Shown piece by piece: positions 12,418 to 40,381 of a stretch of DNA of 64,000 bases (the first letter of the stretch is position 1; each line of letters opens with the position of its first letter). Below the pieces are notes generated by a model. It saw nothing but the letters and a program-made list of their open reading frames with translations, made no database searches and was not told where the DNA came from. Source of the stretch: Dehalogenimonas sp. THU2 (lineage in GTDB: Bacteria > Chloroflexota > Dehalococcoidia > Dehalococcoidales > Dehalococcoidaceae); assembly GCF_039749495.1 (NCBI RefSeq), contig NZ_JBDLLU010000002.1, forward strand, positions 62,001-126,000, given 5' to 3'. The translations under genes were made by a program, and so were the position numbers.

Positions 12418-12741
12418 ATCTGAATAATCTCCGTCTGACAAACTGAACTGGCATTATATCACGACCGCGCCCCGAAGCCAAGGATCCTGTTTTTTCAACC
12501 ATGACATCAATCAAAAGGAAACGATTACCCGAAAGGTTGAACAACAAGGAGGAATCAAAGACCTAATAATTAGGAGCACTGAAGCGGAGGTTTTTGAAAA
12601 ATTCAGCATAAATGCTTAGACGTAAAATATGGTTTACGTTCATTTTGTTAAGCCATGGGGTATTGACACGCCAGCAAAAAGCCCTTATAATAAGTGAAAA
12701 GTTAGGGAATAATAAGGAAATAGTAAGGAGGTCCCGGAACT
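12418..12741. other. Intergenic region upstream of rdhB
   Basis: This 324-base AT-rich stretch lies between the 44-residue ORF and rdhB. It holds the rdhB promoter, its leader and ribosome site. Further left is a possible 21-codon ORF (ATG at about 12500, beginning MTSIKRKRLPERLNNK) that ends in a second AAGGAGG at about 12546; it has no usable downstream start and may be decayed sequence. I found no remnant of a catalytic rdhA gene. Confidence 0.5.
12663..12691 (+). promoter_or_regulatory. Perfect consensus sigma-70 promoter of rdhB
   Basis: TTGACA (12663-12668), a 17-base spacer and TATAAT (12686-12691) match full consensus in both boxes with ideal spacing. The transcript would start near 12698 and carry AAGGAGG (12725-12731) ten bases before the ATG at 12742. 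Nothing in this leader looks like an operator, so strong constitutive expression is expected unless a regulator binds elsewhere. Confidence 0.85.
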
Positions 12742-13011
12742 ATGTGGTTAGTAATTGGTCTTCTCCTCGGCGCGGCTCTCATCTGGCTGGTCAGCCTCAT
12801 GAAGGGCAAAGGCATCAGCATGAAGTGGTACGAATGGATCATCGGTCTCATCGGTGTGGCCATGCTCCTCTTCACCGTCCAGAACTACTTCGGTTCGCTG
12901 GCTGAACTGGAACCCACCGCCGCCAACATGTTCCTCCTGGTCACCGGCCTGCCCGCCATAATCCTGCTGGCCGTAACTTGGCAGCTGGTCGTCCGCCACA
13001 AGAACGCCTAA
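12742..13011 (+). CDS. rdhB: Orphan reductive dehalogenase membrane anchor protein (RdhB type)
   Basis: An 89-residue membrane protein with three hydrophobic segments (about 1-18, 28-48, 60-84). The sequence fits RdhB anchors of Dehalococcoides/Dehalogenimonas: MWLVIGLLLGAALIWLV, the KWYEWIIGLIG block, QNYFGSLAELEPTAANMFLL and a C-terminal VTWQLVVRHK. RdhB proteins tether the Tat-exported catalytic RdhA to the outer face of the cytoplasmic membrane. Normally rdhB directly follows rdhA. Here there is no rdhA on either side, only a strong promoter before and a terminator after, so it is expressed alone. It could serve RdhA enzymes encoded elsewhere. Confidence 0.88.
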   Translation: MWLVIGLLLGAALIWLVSLMKGKGISMKWYEWIIGLIGVAMLLFTVQNYFGSLAELEPTAANMFLLVTGLPAIILLAVTWQLVVRHKNA

Positions 13012-13040
13012 ACCCAAACAATTTAATATCGTCCCACAGA

Positions 13041-13071
13041 GGGGGAGTCGAGAGACTCCCCCTTCTTTTTT
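13041..13071 (+). terminator. Rho-independent terminator of rdhB
   Basis: A 9-bp stem, GGGGGAGTC (13041-13049) with GACTCCCCC (13054-13062), closes a GAGA tetraloop and is followed by TTCTTTTTT. It begins 29 bases after the rdhB stop. It is a textbook terminator and confirms that rdhB is a single-gene unit. Confidence 0.92.
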
Positions 13072-13099
13072 ACCTCAAAAGCAGGGTTGAGACTATAGT

Positions 13100-14107
13100 C
13101 TAAGACCTGGTCGCCAATTCGGCCACCAGGAGGTCTATGGACATCGTCTCGTCCATACGGCCGGTCTTGGCGGCAATATCAGCTTCGAGGAGTTGCCTGT
13201 AAATGTCTTTGAAACGGTCGATAGAGAACCGTCCTGCCTGATCTAAAGCTTTCTTCCAGACAAAATCCGCGTTGAGGCCCAAACGACGTCTGATTTCCAT
13301 ATCTTTCTCACCGCGACTTTTCAGGTCTTTGATCTGAATTACCAGCCGGAGTTGCCGAGCCAGCATGGAAAGGACATAACCCGCGGAGAAGCCGCTGGCC
13401 TTGAGACTTTCCAGCGAAGTAGTGGCGGTTTTGAGGCGCTGCTCGAAAATGGCGTCCACCAAGCTGAAGATATTGGCCTCCTGAGCTGAGCCTACCAGAG
13501 CTTTTACGTCATTTTCGGTGATGACTCGTTCGCAGGCGAAGAGAGTCAGTTTATCAATCTCGGTGGCTAGGGACCACAGGTCGGCGCCGACATACTGGAC
13601 GAGCAGGTTAATGGCACCGGGGCTGATCTGTCCACCGGCATGCAACACCCGCCGCCCGATCCATTCCTTAAGTTGGGGCTTATCCAGCGGCGGAAACTCA
13701 TGCATCTCCAAAACGTCGGAGATGGACTTGAAGAGCGGGTTGGTGCGGTTGAGTGACGTTTCGGTCAGGATGAGCGTCGTCGACGGGGGCGATGAACGGA
13801 CGATCCCGGCGAATTCCTCGATGTCCTCGGGTTTGGTCTTCTTTTTGCCGCCTGCGTCGCCTGAGGCCGGCTGGAAACGGCTAAACAGCCCGCTGACAAC
13901 GACCAGGCGCGCCGGTGACAGAAAGGGCGCGGCATGCACGGTCAACCGGAACTCCGCCGGCTTGAGCCGGGCGGCATCGAAAATATTGGTCGCCGTGGAA
14001 AGCATCGCCGGGTCACCAAGCGATGCTTTGATGGAATTAAGCTTGGCTTTGAGCGAAAAATCGTCCGGCCCGGCCAGGAGATAGCGCAAAATAGGATCCT
14101 CTATCAC
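13100..14107 (-). CDS. holA: DNA polymerase III subunit delta
   Basis: Clamp-loader subunit that opens the sliding clamp. The 335 residues have the family layout: an N-terminal AAA-like domain beginning with a YLLAGPDDFSLKAKL segment and continuing through LVVVSGLFSRF, a middle WIGRRVLHAGGQISPGA region, VQYVGADLWSLATEIDKL typical of HolA domain II, and a C-terminal helical collar (MLARQLRLVIQIK...). There is no Walker A motif, as expected for delta. An acidic/lysine-rich loop (GDAGGKKKTKPEDIEE) interrupts the first domain. It stands alone between the rdhB terminator and the trkA pair. Confidence 0.9.
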   Translation of the reverse strand: MIEDPILRYLLAGPDDFSLKAKLNSIKASLGDPAMLSTATNIFDAARLKPAEFRLTVHAAPFLSPARLVVVSGLFSRFQPASGDAGGKKKTKPEDIEEFAGIVRSSPPSTTLILTETSLNRTNPLFKSISDVLEMHEFPPLDKPQLKEWIGRRVLHAGGQISPGAINLLVQYVGADLWSLATEIDKLTLFACERVITENDVKALVGSAQEANIFSLVDAIFEQRLKTATTSLESLKASGFSAGYVLSMLARQLRLVIQIKDLKSRGEKDMEIRRRLGLNADFVWKKALDQAGRFSIDRFKDIYRQLLEADIAAKTGRMDETMSIDLLVAELATRS

Positions 14108-33310: not shown

Positions 33311-35887
33311 CTACCTGATGAACTCACTGACCGCAGCCAGAGCGGTCTGAAGCTGTTCTTTGTCCCGGCCGCCGCCCTGAGCCAGGTTCGGCTTGCCACC
33401 ACCGCCGCCCCCGGCGATCTGCGAGAGTCTCTTAATAATGTTACCGGCATGATAGCCCTTATCCACCATATCCGGGGTGACCGCGGCCAGGAATACCGGT
33501 TTGTCCGCCCAGACCGAGCCGAGGACGATCACCGCAGAACCGAGTTTTTCACGCAAAACGTCGGTCATATCCCGCAGGGTATCCATGTTGGCTTCGGCAA
33601 CAGAAGCGACGAGGAGCTTGCCGCCCACAACGTCACGGGCGCTGCCGATTAGGGATAAAGCGTCTTTCTTCGCCAGGTCCCGCTGCAGACCGGTGATGGC
33701 ACTTTTTTCAGCGTCGATCTCCGCCTGAAGATGCGCGATCTTCTCGTTAAACGACTTGAAATGATCCCGTAGGTAAGCCTCGGCGCCGCGGCCAGTGACC
33801 GCCTCGATACGGCGGAGTCCCGCGCCGACGCTGGACTCGCTCACAACCTTGAAAAGGCCGATCTCGCCGGTGGATTTGATGTGGGTGCCACCGCATAGCT
33901 CGGCGGAAACCGGTTTGTTAGCGCCGATGGACAGCACCCGCACTTTCTCGCCGTATTTTTCGCCGAAAAGCGCGGTTACGCCCTGTTTGAGCGCGTCCTG
34001 GTATCCGGTCTCGGTGGCGGACACCGGATGATTCTCCCGGATGCGCTCGTTGACCAGGTCTTCCACACGAACGATCTCCTCCGGGGAGACGCCTTTAAGA
34101 TGGGAGAAATCGAATCGCAGCCTGTCAGGGGTGACGATCGATCCCCGCTGCTGCACGTGCTCCCCCAGCACGTCACGCAGGGCTGCCTGCAGCAGATGCG
34201 TGGCGGTGTGATTGCGGGCAATGTCATAGCGGCGGGGGCCGTTCACGCGGGACATGGCCTCGTCGCCCATGCGGATGATGCCGCGGCTGACATAGCCCTG
34301 GTGTACGGTTACGCCGGGACTCAACGGCATGGCGCTGGTCACGACAAAGGTATTATCGCCGACGGTGATCTCTCCGATATCGCCTACCTGGCCGCCCATC
34401 TCGGCGTAGAAGGCCGTTTTATCCAGGATAATGCCGCCCTGTTCGCCTTCACTGAGTGAATCGACCTGATCGTTGTTCTTAATCAAGCCGTCGACGGTGC
34501 CATACTGGGACAGGCGGTCATAGCCGGTAAAACAGGTGGCGCCGAAAACATGGCCGCCGTGGCTTTCCTTATCCAGTACGAACTTGGCCCCCGCCCTGGC
34601 CTTCTCCCTCTGGCGGGCCATCTCATAGTTGAAGCCCTCGGAATCGACCTCGAAGCCGTGTTGCGCGGCGATCTCCACGGTCAGGTCCAGCGGGAAACCG
34701 TAGGTATCGTACAGTTTGAACGCCTGCTCGCCGGTGACCTTGCGCCGCAGCCGGCTCTCATCCCCGGCCATCATGTCCTCCAGGAGTTGCATACCGGTGA
34801 ACAGGGTCTCGGCAAAGCGGGATTCCTCCCGCGCAACCAGTTCGATGATGAAATCGCGGCGTGACGTAAGTTCGGGGTATACCTTGCCCATGTGCTCGAT
34901 GACCGCCTCGATGAGGGGCACCATGAACGGCTGTTTCAACCCGATCATGCGCCCGAAGAGCGCCGCCCGGCGCAGCAGCCGCCGCAGCACGTAACCCCGG
35001 CCTTCGTTAGATGGGATGACGCCATCGGCGATGAGGAAGGTGATGCCGCGGGAATGCTCGGCGATGATGCGCATCGCCCGGTCGGTCTCCCCGTTCCCCC
35101 CGTATTTTTTGCCGGAGACCTCGGCGACCCTGCCGAGCAGGTAGTCGAAGCGATCGGTCTGATAGACGGTGGACTTGCCCTGCATGATGGCGGTGAGGCG
35201 TTCCAGCCCCATTCCGGTGTCGATGTTGGGGCGTGGCAGGGGGGTGCGGGCACCGGCGGTGTCCTGGTTGAACTGCATGAACACAAGGTTCCATATCTCG
35301 CAGAAGCGGCCGCATTTGCAGGCCGGACCGCAAGCCGGATCATCACAACCGGCTTCCTCACCGAAGTCGTAATGAATCTCGGAACAGGGGCCGCAGGGAC
35401 CGGAATCACCGGCCGGGCCCCAGAAGTTGTCCTTTTCACCCAGGCGGACGATACGTTCAGCCGGCACACCCTTGTCCAGCCAGAATCGGATAGCCTCGTC
35501 GTCGTCCAGGTAGACAGTTACCCACAGGCGCTCTTTGGGTATCTTGAGCCGCTCGGTGACGAACTCCCAGGCAAAATCGATGGCTTCTTTCTTGAAATAA
35601 TCCCCCACCGAGAAATTGCCCAGCATCTCGAAGAAGGTCAGGTGGGATGAATCCCCGACTGAATCTATATCCGTGGTGCGGAAACACTTCTGAGTGGTGG
35701 TCAGGCGAACCGCCGGCGGTTTTTCCCTGCCCAGGAAGTAGGGCTTGAACTGCACCATGCCCGCGGTGGTCAGCAGCAGTGTGGGGTCTCCGTGGGGGAT
35801 CAGTGAAGCGGAGGGCATGATCTTGTGCCCTTTCTCCGCGAAATATTCGAGAAAAAGCTGGCGTAATTCGTCACCGGTCATGGGCAT
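33311..35887 (-). CDS. alaS: Alanyl-tRNA synthetase
   Basis: Class II synthetase of 858 residues with all four domains. The aminoacylation core has SLIPHGDPTLLLTTAGMVQFKP and GDSSHLTFFEMLGNFSVGDYF. The editing domain has ARNHTATHLLQAALR and the zinc motif CGGTHIKSTGEIG. The C-terminal oligomerisation domain is lysine/alanine-rich and ends with a glycine run (QIAGGGGGGKPNLAQGGG). An extra Cys cluster (CDDPACGPACKCGRFCE), seen in some bacterial AlaRS, lies near residue 180. It leads the operon from a strong promoter. Confidence 0.96.
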   Translation of the reverse strand: MPMTGDELRQLFLEYFAEKGHKIMPSASLIPHGDPTLLLTTAGMVQFKPYFLGREKPPAVRLTTTQKCFRTTDIDSVGDSSHLTFFEMLGNFSVGDYFKKEAIDFAWEFVTERLKIPKERLWVTVYLDDDEAIRFWLDKGVPAERIVRLGEKDNFWGPAGDSGPCGPCSEIHYDFGEEAGCDDPACGPACKCGRFCEIWNLVFMQFNQDTAGARTPLPRPNIDTGMGLERLTAIMQGKSTVYQTDRFDYLLGRVAEVSGKKYGGNGETDRAMRIIAEHSRGITFLIADGVIPSNEGRGYVLRRLLRRAALFGRMIGLKQPFMVPLIEAVIEHMGKVYPELTSRRDFIIELVAREESRFAETLFTGMQLLEDMMAGDESRLRRKVTGEQAFKLYDTYGFPLDLTVEIAAQHGFEVDSEGFNYEMARQREKARAGAKFVLDKESHGGHVFGATCFTGYDRLSQYGTVDGLIKNNDQVDSLSEGEQGGIILDKTAFYAEMGGQVGDIGEITVGDNTFVVTSAMPLSPGVTVHQGYVSRGIIRMGDEAMSRVNGPRRYDIARNHTATHLLQAALRDVLGEHVQQRGSIVTPDRLRFDFSHLKGVSPEEIVRVEDLVNERIRENHPVSATETGYQDALKQGVTALFGEKYGEKVRVLSIGANKPVSAELCGGTHIKSTGEIGLFKVVSESSVGAGLRRIEAVTGRGAEAYLRDHFKSFNEKIAHLQAEIDAEKSAITGLQRDLAKKDALSLIGSARDVVGGKLLVASVAEANMDTLRDMTDVLREKLGSAVIVLGSVWADKPVFLAAVTPDMVDKGYHAGNIIKRLSQIAGGGGGGKPNLAQGGGRDKEQLQTALAAVSEFIR

Positions 35888-38086: not shown

Positions 38087-40381
38087 CTAGTAGTCCGTTC
38101 CCTGGATATAACTCCTTAGAGTAGCTGGATCGGACTCTATCCAATCCGGCCTCATCATCTCGTTGTCCTCGTGGTCGGTGATGTGGCAGTGCCAGACGTA
38201 AACACCGTTGCCTTCGTTTGGGGTGAAGTCGAAAGCGCCTACACCCCCGGCGGGTATATCCTGCGGCGCCCAGCGGGTGACGATTCGGGTCACCTCTCCC
38301 GGGTTCATGATAACCGTGTCCTTCCAGCCAGCCTCATGGGCCAGCGGCGGCAACGGTACACCGAGAAGATACGGAGCAACGTCGGGATTACCACCCAGTA
38401 TCCAGTTTCCATTGATATCAACCCCCGAAGCCGGGTCGGAACCATCATACGGCAACGGCGGCCCGTATCCGGGCATGAACATACCGCCGGGGAAGCTCAT
38501 GTCATAGGCAGCCATGAAGGCGGCCATATCGAAAGGCTGCCGGTTGATGAGCTGGAACTGAATGGCATGGAGGTGGATGGGGTGGGAGTCCATGGTCAGG
38601 TTGGCTATCTCCCAAACCTCGGTATCGCCCTCGACGGGCAGCTCGGTGAGGTAGTTGGTAAAAGGCGCAGGCCCAACCGGGGTAGAGCCGGGTATGGGTG
38701 TCATATCCATTCTATGACCGCCCCACTTAGAGTTGTTGACCAACGCCTCAAGCGGCCCGCCGGCACCGACAATCTCGTTCAGGGTCATGAAGCGTGTCTT
38801 GGAAGGAATCACGTTCAAGGTGCCGGTTGCCGGGTTAGCCAGTCGTACCATCGGTGGACGCAGGGGGATTGCGCTGGCCGGATCGTAGCTGTTGTCCGCA
38901 GCTGCCCCAGCCGGAGCTACCACGCGGAATTGCATGATGCGACCGGTGGTGCTGGCTTTAGGATTGCCTTCCACAGTGGGAGCGGTGTTACGAAGGATCA
39001 AGTTTGTACCTGGCGCCACTCCCGCAAAGTCGATGATGACCTCGTAGCGCTCTCCCGGCTTTATCGGTAGGCTCTTGGCAAGCCCTGCCATCACCTGCTG
39101 GCCGGTAGCGTTGGGATTTATCTCCACAGGAACATCTAGATAGCCACCATCAGTAGCGATAACCCACATCCGAGGGCCTTTAATTCCTGAAGCCGAATCC
39201 TGGAGATACATATCGTACATCCGCGAGTTCGAACCATTTACGATGTAGAAGCGGTAACGCCTCGGCTCAACCTCAAGGTACGGCCAGACCTTGCCATTGA
39301 CGATGATGGTGTCACCGACGAACTCAGGTACCCAGAATGGGTGCTCAGGATTGACGCCAACAGTGGGGAAGAAGAGCTGACCATTGGTATCGAACATCCG
39401 GTCCTGGATCACGAGCGGGATCAGGAAGTTGTCAGTATCGCTAACCGTATTGCCTAAACCTGTCGTGTCCAATCCCACCGGGGTCAGGCCGTTGGGTAGT
39501 GCCAGCCCGGTATCTATAAGGGCGTAAGCACCGGCAAGACCGCCAAAAGTGGCGTTGAGCCGCGTGCCACCGAGCAGGTGGTCATGGAACCACAACGGCG
39601 CCGCTTCCTGTGTGTTGGGATAACGGAAGACACACTCGTTGGCAGCTGCCGCCACGCCGGGATGTGTGTAGTACGCCGGACCGTGGTTCATTGTGATTGG
39701 AAGGGTGCCGGGAATATCACTGGCGAACCATTGCTCCGGTCCTCCGTCTATGAGCGCTGGCACCTCACCTCCATGAAGATGGGGAACCGTCAGTACCGGT
39801 CCCATGTAATGGGTATTAGCGTCGGCACCTATTGGCATCCCCATATTGAAAGCCTGGTGGAAGGCCGAATGCAGCGTCTGATCTGTCCAATCATGCCAGG
39901 CGATGGTGTTCGCATCGGCATAGAGATTGTTGACATAGCGTACCTGGGTTGGGACGCCTCGTTTGGCTACTATAACCGGGCCGACATTGGTATCCACTGC
40001 CGCCCCAGGCGCCCCTGTCGGACCGACGCGGTAGCCGAAAGTCCAGGTGCCATCATATGGCTGGCCGTTGGCAGGGACGAATGTAGACGGCATAATATTC
40101 GCTCTGAAAGTGTGCTGGTTCAGAACGACTTCACCGGTATCCGCGAGCACAGTTTCCATAGTGCCACCGGCGATACTCAAGCGTGGCAGCGGATCTACAA
40201 ACTGAGGGATTTTATTGCTCTTCAGCTGGACCTGGCCGGCGGGTTGGGGCTTGGCAGCGAAGAGGGCGACTCCTCTCATCAACGTACTTTCAGCCAGCAG
40301 CAAGCCTCCGGCCCCTGCCGCAGTGATGCCAGCCCTTCTCATGAATTCCCTTCTACTAACACCTGTTTGTTGGTTTAACAT
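38087..40381 (-). CDS. Tat-exported multicopper oxidase
   Basis: A 764-residue cuproxidase. The N-terminus is a twin-arginine signal (SRREFMRRAG, R10/R11, then a hydrophobic stretch). Copper ligand motifs are complete: HLHGG, WFHDH, HPIHLHAIQF and HCHITDHEDNEMM, giving the type 1 site and the trinuclear centre, with Met as likely axial ligand. The overall size and layout resemble CotA/bilirubin-oxidase-like or PhsA-type three-domain enzymes. It acts outside the membrane, oxidising metals or phenolics with oxygen, or perhaps serving copper tolerance. It is unusual in an anaerobe. AGGAGGAG overlaps the preceding TAA and sits just before the ATG. Confidence 0.93.
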   Translation of the reverse strand: MLNQQTGVSRREFMRRAGITAAGAGGLLLAESTLMRGVALFAAKPQPAGQVQLKSNKIPQFVDPLPRLSIAGGTMETVLADTGEVVLNQHTFRANIMPSTFVPANGQPYDGTWTFGYRVGPTGAPGAAVDTNVGPVIVAKRGVPTQVRYVNNLYADANTIAWHDWTDQTLHSAFHQAFNMGMPIGADANTHYMGPVLTVPHLHGGEVPALIDGGPEQWFASDIPGTLPITMNHGPAYYTHPGVAAAANECVFRYPNTQEAAPLWFHDHLLGGTRLNATFGGLAGAYALIDTGLALPNGLTPVGLDTTGLGNTVSDTDNFLIPLVIQDRMFDTNGQLFFPTVGVNPEHPFWVPEFVGDTIIVNGKVWPYLEVEPRRYRFYIVNGSNSRMYDMYLQDSASGIKGPRMWVIATDGGYLDVPVEINPNATGQQVMAGLAKSLPIKPGERYEVIIDFAGVAPGTNLILRNTAPTVEGNPKASTTGRIMQFRVVAPAGAAADNSYDPASAIPLRPPMVRLANPATGTLNVIPSKTRFMTLNEIVGAGGPLEALVNNSKWGGHRMDMTPIPGSTPVGPAPFTNYLTELPVEGDTEVWEIANLTMDSHPIHLHAIQFQLINRQPFDMAAFMAAYDMSFPGGMFMPGYGPPLPYDGSDPASGVDINGNWILGGNPDVAPYLLGVPLPPLAHEAGWKDTVIMNPGEVTRIVTRWAPQDIPAGGVGAFDFTPNEGNGVYVWHCHITDHEDNEMMRPDWIESDPATLRSYIQGTDY

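Follow-up and report, generated by a model that had tools for sequence, protein, structure and literature searches.

A solitary rdhB conserved across Dehalogenimonas, with its own promoter, as a candidate shared membrane anchor for RdhA enzymes that lack an RdhB partner

The locus described here lies in a 64,000-nucleotide stretch of Dehalogenimonas sp. THU2 DNA (the window, whose positions are used below unless another contig is named) and consists of a small, isolated rdhB gene with transcription signals of its own. The gene occupies positions 12742–13011 of the forward strand, begins with ATG and has an intact reading frame for an 89-residue membrane anchor of the RdhB type, as an earlier, sequence-only reading of this DNA had claimed. 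Within the genome, its product is 41–48% identical to four other proteins, and because the gene for each of these lies directly 3' of an rdhA, the assignment to RdhB is sound. The best-matching RdhBs of Dehalococcoides are 58–67% identical to it. The RdhB hallmark residues WYEW, EXE and GLPA are retained, and the EXE motif (E55-L-E57), unchanged in all seven distinct orthologs that we aligned, falls between helices 2 and 3, in the loop where a study of PceA2B2 placed the EXE motif of PceB (PMC10624902). AlphaFold, run on the single sequence, predicted three helices (residues 2–22, 28–56 and 58–88; mean pLDDT 77), and this helix count and the length of 89 residues fit the description of RdhB as a protein of ~90 residues with two or three transmembrane helices. 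The gene does not lie directly downstream of a cognate rdhA, a position that is usual in this family, not absolute, as an orphan rdhB was already known from an earlier genome report (PMC4918011). Searches of Pfam and NCBIfam returned no match above cut-off, and sequence and fold searches of the PDB did not retrieve PceB, which those libraries may not include. Judged by homology, the orphan gene is a genuine rdhB.

Its expression signals, all on the forward strand, are equally well defined. A –35 element, TTGACA (12663–12668), and a –10 element, TATAAT (12686–12691), are separated by a 17-nt spacer and match the consensus at 12 of 12 positions, and the Shine-Dalgarno sequence AAGGAGG (12725–12731) lies ten bases 5' of the ATG. 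Downstream, an intrinsic terminator (13039–13072) has the expected GNRA-type loop, here GAGA, on a perfect 9-bp G+C-rich core, GGGGGAGTC-GAGA-GACTCCCCC, followed by a T-rich tail, and its folding energy stands well apart from that of shuffled sequences (z = –4.4). The earlier description of a solitary rdhB with transcription signals of its own is thus supported. The perfect TTGACA-17-TATAAT arrangement occurs at six sites in the 1.84-Mb genome, compared with none for a reversed-pattern control; one of these is in the window, where 0.06 sites would be expected even with up to one mismatch. Another of the six, at L080:1345-1481 on the reverse strand (G000:C3 near 144684), precedes a molybdenum/tungsten (Moco) riboswitch that lies upstream of a lipoprotein-like gene.

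Between the promoter and the start codon lies a purine-rich leader, AGTTAGGGAATAATAAGGAAATAGTAAG (12700–12727), composed of A/G-rich units of ~11 nt (AATAATAAGGA-like), the last of which runs into the Shine-Dalgarno site. A search of the genome found no second copy of this leader. The promoter together with the first part of the leader occurs exactly once, with zero mismatches, in each of eight Dehalogenimonas genomes, whereas the sequence flanking it has diverged among them, and the leader is nearly unchanged despite divergence at synonymous sites. A further motif, CAATTTAATATCG (13019–13031; core AAYTKAATATCG), follows the stop codon in all eight orthologs, with its core between the stop codon and the terminator. 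We considered this motif as a shared regulatory element and rejected the idea, as three of its four other genomic copies lie in a repeated element and none is in a comparable 3' untranslated region.

The gene stands alone throughout the genus. No rdhA is found within ~5 kb of it in any of the eight genomes, and the nearest on the contig (C2:56954-57820) lies ~17 kb to the left, which bears out the claim that no catalytic rdhA is adjacent. The orphan rdhB adjoins housekeeping genes: in six of the eight genomes its convergent neighbour is holA, encoding DNA polymerase III delta (13100–14107, reverse strand, in the window), and the upstream neighbours differ among the eight. A misassembled junction with an rdhA just beyond it, which the sequence-only reading had named as a way in which it could be wrong, was rejected, because the same rdhB–holA junction is present in six of the eight genomes and an adjacent rdhA in none. 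The alaS gene, at 33311–35887 on the reverse strand, is ~20 kb from the orphan rdhB in the window and close beside it in G003, G004, G005 and G007, a placement that suggests that alaS, rdhB and holA were ancestrally neighbours and that a rearrangement separated them. Also in the window, a gene at 38087–40381 (reverse strand) encodes a protein of 764 residues that carries a twin-arginine signal and, from a reading of its sequence alone, resembles a multicopper oxidase, which would be odd for a strict anaerobe.

A gene that is single, solitary, strongly promoted and set beside housekeeping genes could encode a small membrane protein that derives from RdhB and has taken up a role outside dehalogenation. 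We consider this improbable, because the WYEW, EXE and GLPA hallmarks persist in the protein and the Pfam and NCBIfam searches produced no matching family other than RdhB.

Orthologs that are 76–86% identical to the orphan RdhB are present in all seven of the other genomes of the genus. The gene has evolved under purifying selection (dN/dS ~0.2), and its mean dS is 0.56, compared with 1.3–2.0 for four neighbouring genes (holA, two trkA-type genes and one usp-type gene) in the same six genomes. This is a synonymous divergence ~2.4–3.6 times lower than that of its neighbours, like that of highly expressed genes; it would be accounted for either by constraint acting on the mRNA or by the strong codon bias of a highly expressed gene. 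One genome departs from the common arrangement. In G002 (1,686,510 bases), an IS256-like element whose 28-nt terminal repeats are imperfect and whose transposase frame is split (L062:4066-5578; G002:C1 about 1474565-1476077) sits inside the start of the orphan rdhB. It is flanked by exact 69-bp duplicates of that start, which are unusually long for duplicates left by an insertion. A truncated rdhB stub now follows the native promoter and leader, and on the far side of the element the intact gene has no native promoter, leader or Shine-Dalgarno site. As the insertion parts the gene from its promoter, this strain may be able to dispense with strong expression.

These comparisons bear on whether the gene is merely a functionless relic, left behind after the loss of its rdhA. 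Its isolation would fit such an origin, and strain IP3-3 carries another orphan rdhB that its genome report places beside a truncated rdhA (PMC4918011). However, the gene is intact in all eight genomes, its dN/dS is low, its promoter, leader and terminator are conserved, and no rdhA-like sequence was found near it. We therefore rejected the relic reading on these conserved contexts and regard it as very improbable.

Potential clients for a free-standing anchor are abundant. The genome (35 contigs, 1,843,851 bases) encodes 19 RdhA proteins, of which 4 have an rdhB and 15 do not, when an rdhB within 350 nt is scored as a partner; the sequence-only reading had proposed this count as a check and had named the absence of any rdhA as grounds for abandoning its interpretation. 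Across five Dehalogenimonas genomes, in regions chosen mainly by rdhA matches, 60 of 82 RdhAs are without an rdhB. In three Dehalococcoides genomes all 63 examined RdhAs have one, a count that is biased because the regions were picked by rdhB matches. In the literature, an rdhB is given for each of the 32 rdhA loci of D. mccartyi CBDB1 (PMC6005880), and a neighbouring rdhB for only 4 of 50 rdhA genes in strain GP (PMC7729418). The rdhB-less RdhAs appear equipped for export and docking: a Tat motif is present in 57 of 60, and all 60 retain a C-terminal tail past the last Fe-S motif, with a median length of 73.5 residues versus 68 in Dehalococcoides RdhAs whose partner is similar to the orphan RdhB. 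In PceA2B2, it is the C-terminus of the catalytic subunit that binds the PceB loop between helices 2 and 3 (PMC10624902). We also searched upstream of the rdhA genes for the leader or the perfect promoter as a sign of co-regulation and found neither; joint regulation of the anchor with any rdhA is thus not evident.

The rdhAB pairs of Dehalococcoides provide a guide to which type of RdhB accompanies which RdhA. For 26 pairs with an orphan-like RdhB (97 bits or more against the orphan, a threshold set after looking at the scores), the nearest Dehalogenimonas RdhA is rdhB-less in 25; for pairs with other RdhB types, the nearest Dehalogenimonas RdhAs are mostly rdhB-bearing. A rank correlation that is independent of the threshold gave rho = 0.68, 0.71 and 0.60 at the family level (39, 30 and 19 families, respectively), values that were matched in 1, 0 and 2 of 1,000 trials in which the rdhB-less label was shuffled among Dehalogenimonas RdhA families. 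The reverse comparison was concordant (p = 3e-5 to 0.003); with the 19 coarsest families as units, a 2x2 test was not significant (p = 0.17). A contrast between the orphan score and the best cognate score gave a stronger correlation (rho 0.74–0.81) but is partly circular because pairs are co-inherited, and we relied on the simpler score. The RdhA tree contains a 27-member clade (support 99), drawn from both genera, of RdhAs that go with other RdhB types; only two of its members are rdhB-less. A small number of rdhB-less RdhAs are thus placed within groups whose RdhB partners are of other types. Resolution in the RdhB tree is poor, with a support of 62 for the branch of the orphan clade itself. 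Taken at the level of sequence type, the orphan RdhB matches the RdhA groups that are without an rdhB.

This match with many anchorless RdhAs suggests that the orphan RdhB is probably a shared membrane socket for them. As our main reading, to which we assign a probability of roughly 0.6, we propose that an rdhB was freed from an rdhAB operon and is now, under its own promoter, the common socket of the rdhB-less RdhAs. The gene would have left its operon before Dehalogenimonas diversified, and many of the cognate rdhB genes would have disappeared, in the ancestor of the genus, from RdhA groups with this anchor type, leaving one strongly promoted copy that serves in trans. The rdhB-less RdhAs would be exported by Tat, the C-terminal tail of each would dock on the periplasmic EXE loop of the orphan RdhB in the membrane, and this docking would link the enzyme to the respiratory complex. 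Such physical pairing, and the service of many RdhAs by one anchor, we infer from the comparisons above. The idea of a shared anchor put forward in the sequence-only reading thus gains indirect support from the 15 of 19 RdhAs without an rdhB, the genus-wide conservation and the type match. Its other element, constitutive expression, is an extrapolation from the consensus promoter, the lack of a neighbouring regulator, the failure to find the motif before rdhA genes and the low dS; expression is presumably high as well.

Dehalococcoides BN-PAGE data, in which RdhA and RdhB co-migrate specifically, suggest specific pairs (PMC6005880), which counts against a universal socket. Together with the co-inheritance of pairs in the RdhA and RdhB trees, they would fit a dedicated anchor of one RdhA encoded elsewhere, in a split pair that has been conserved, with the other rdhB-less RdhAs being soluble or anchored otherwise. 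However, the type match spans many rdhB-less RdhA families and not one, and a non-exhaustive search recognised no single RdhA as an invariant companion; we consider a dedicated anchor unlikely, if the strongest of the competitors. Somewhat less likely still, in our estimation, is that the protein serves the respiratory supercomplex as an invariable structural subunit, at OmeB or the Hup hydrogenase, for example, and is needed whichever RdhA is in use. A contact between OmeB and RdhB has been reported in Dehalococcoides (PMC6005880), and the strong, conserved promoter and low dS would suit such a subunit, but the closest homologs in the sister genus belong to ordinary rdhAB pairs, none of those examined being solitary, and the correlation of type with RdhA would stay unexplained.

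The idea of a shared anchor has a precedent in the literature. An orphan rdhB of D. alkenigignens IP3-3, DEALK_05730, was reported in 2016 along with the suggestion that it could complement rdhA genes without an rdhB (PMC4918011). It resembles the gene described here in its length (89 residues, 270 bp; 58.5% GC) and in having no cognate rdhA; the available part of that report deals with one genome and does not include the promoter, the leader, genus-wide conservation, selection or a type match with RdhA. Ordinary RdhBs from Dehalococcoides rdhAB operons share the family, length and WYEW and EXE motifs of the orphan, although their genes follow an rdhA and the orphan instead stands between a promoter and a terminator of its own. 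PceB of Desulfitobacterium hafniense is likewise a small three-helix anchor, and its EXE loop contacts the C-terminus of the catalytic subunit (PMC10624902), but it is encoded with pceA and was not retrieved with the orphan RdhB as query. The conservation of the gene, promoter and leader across the genus, the measurements of selection and dS and the test of type matching are new here, and we found no earlier report of them in the literature searched, whose coverage is incomplete.

Overall, these observations raise the prospect of a many-to-one modular respiratory system, in which a large group of Dehalogenimonas RdhAs, after losing their cognate anchors, share a constitutive, strongly expressed and matching anchor that acts in trans and whose supply is controlled by its conserved leader, a picture that we hold at even odds. 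How the many Dehalogenimonas RdhAs without an rdhB connect to the respiratory chain in the membrane was a question that the IP3-3 genome paper left open (PMC4918011). If one shared anchor serves them, their genes would encode enzymes that can be used, not ones that are dead or soluble, and this single gene would provide both a natural marker and a co-expression partner for the heterologous production of these dehalogenases.
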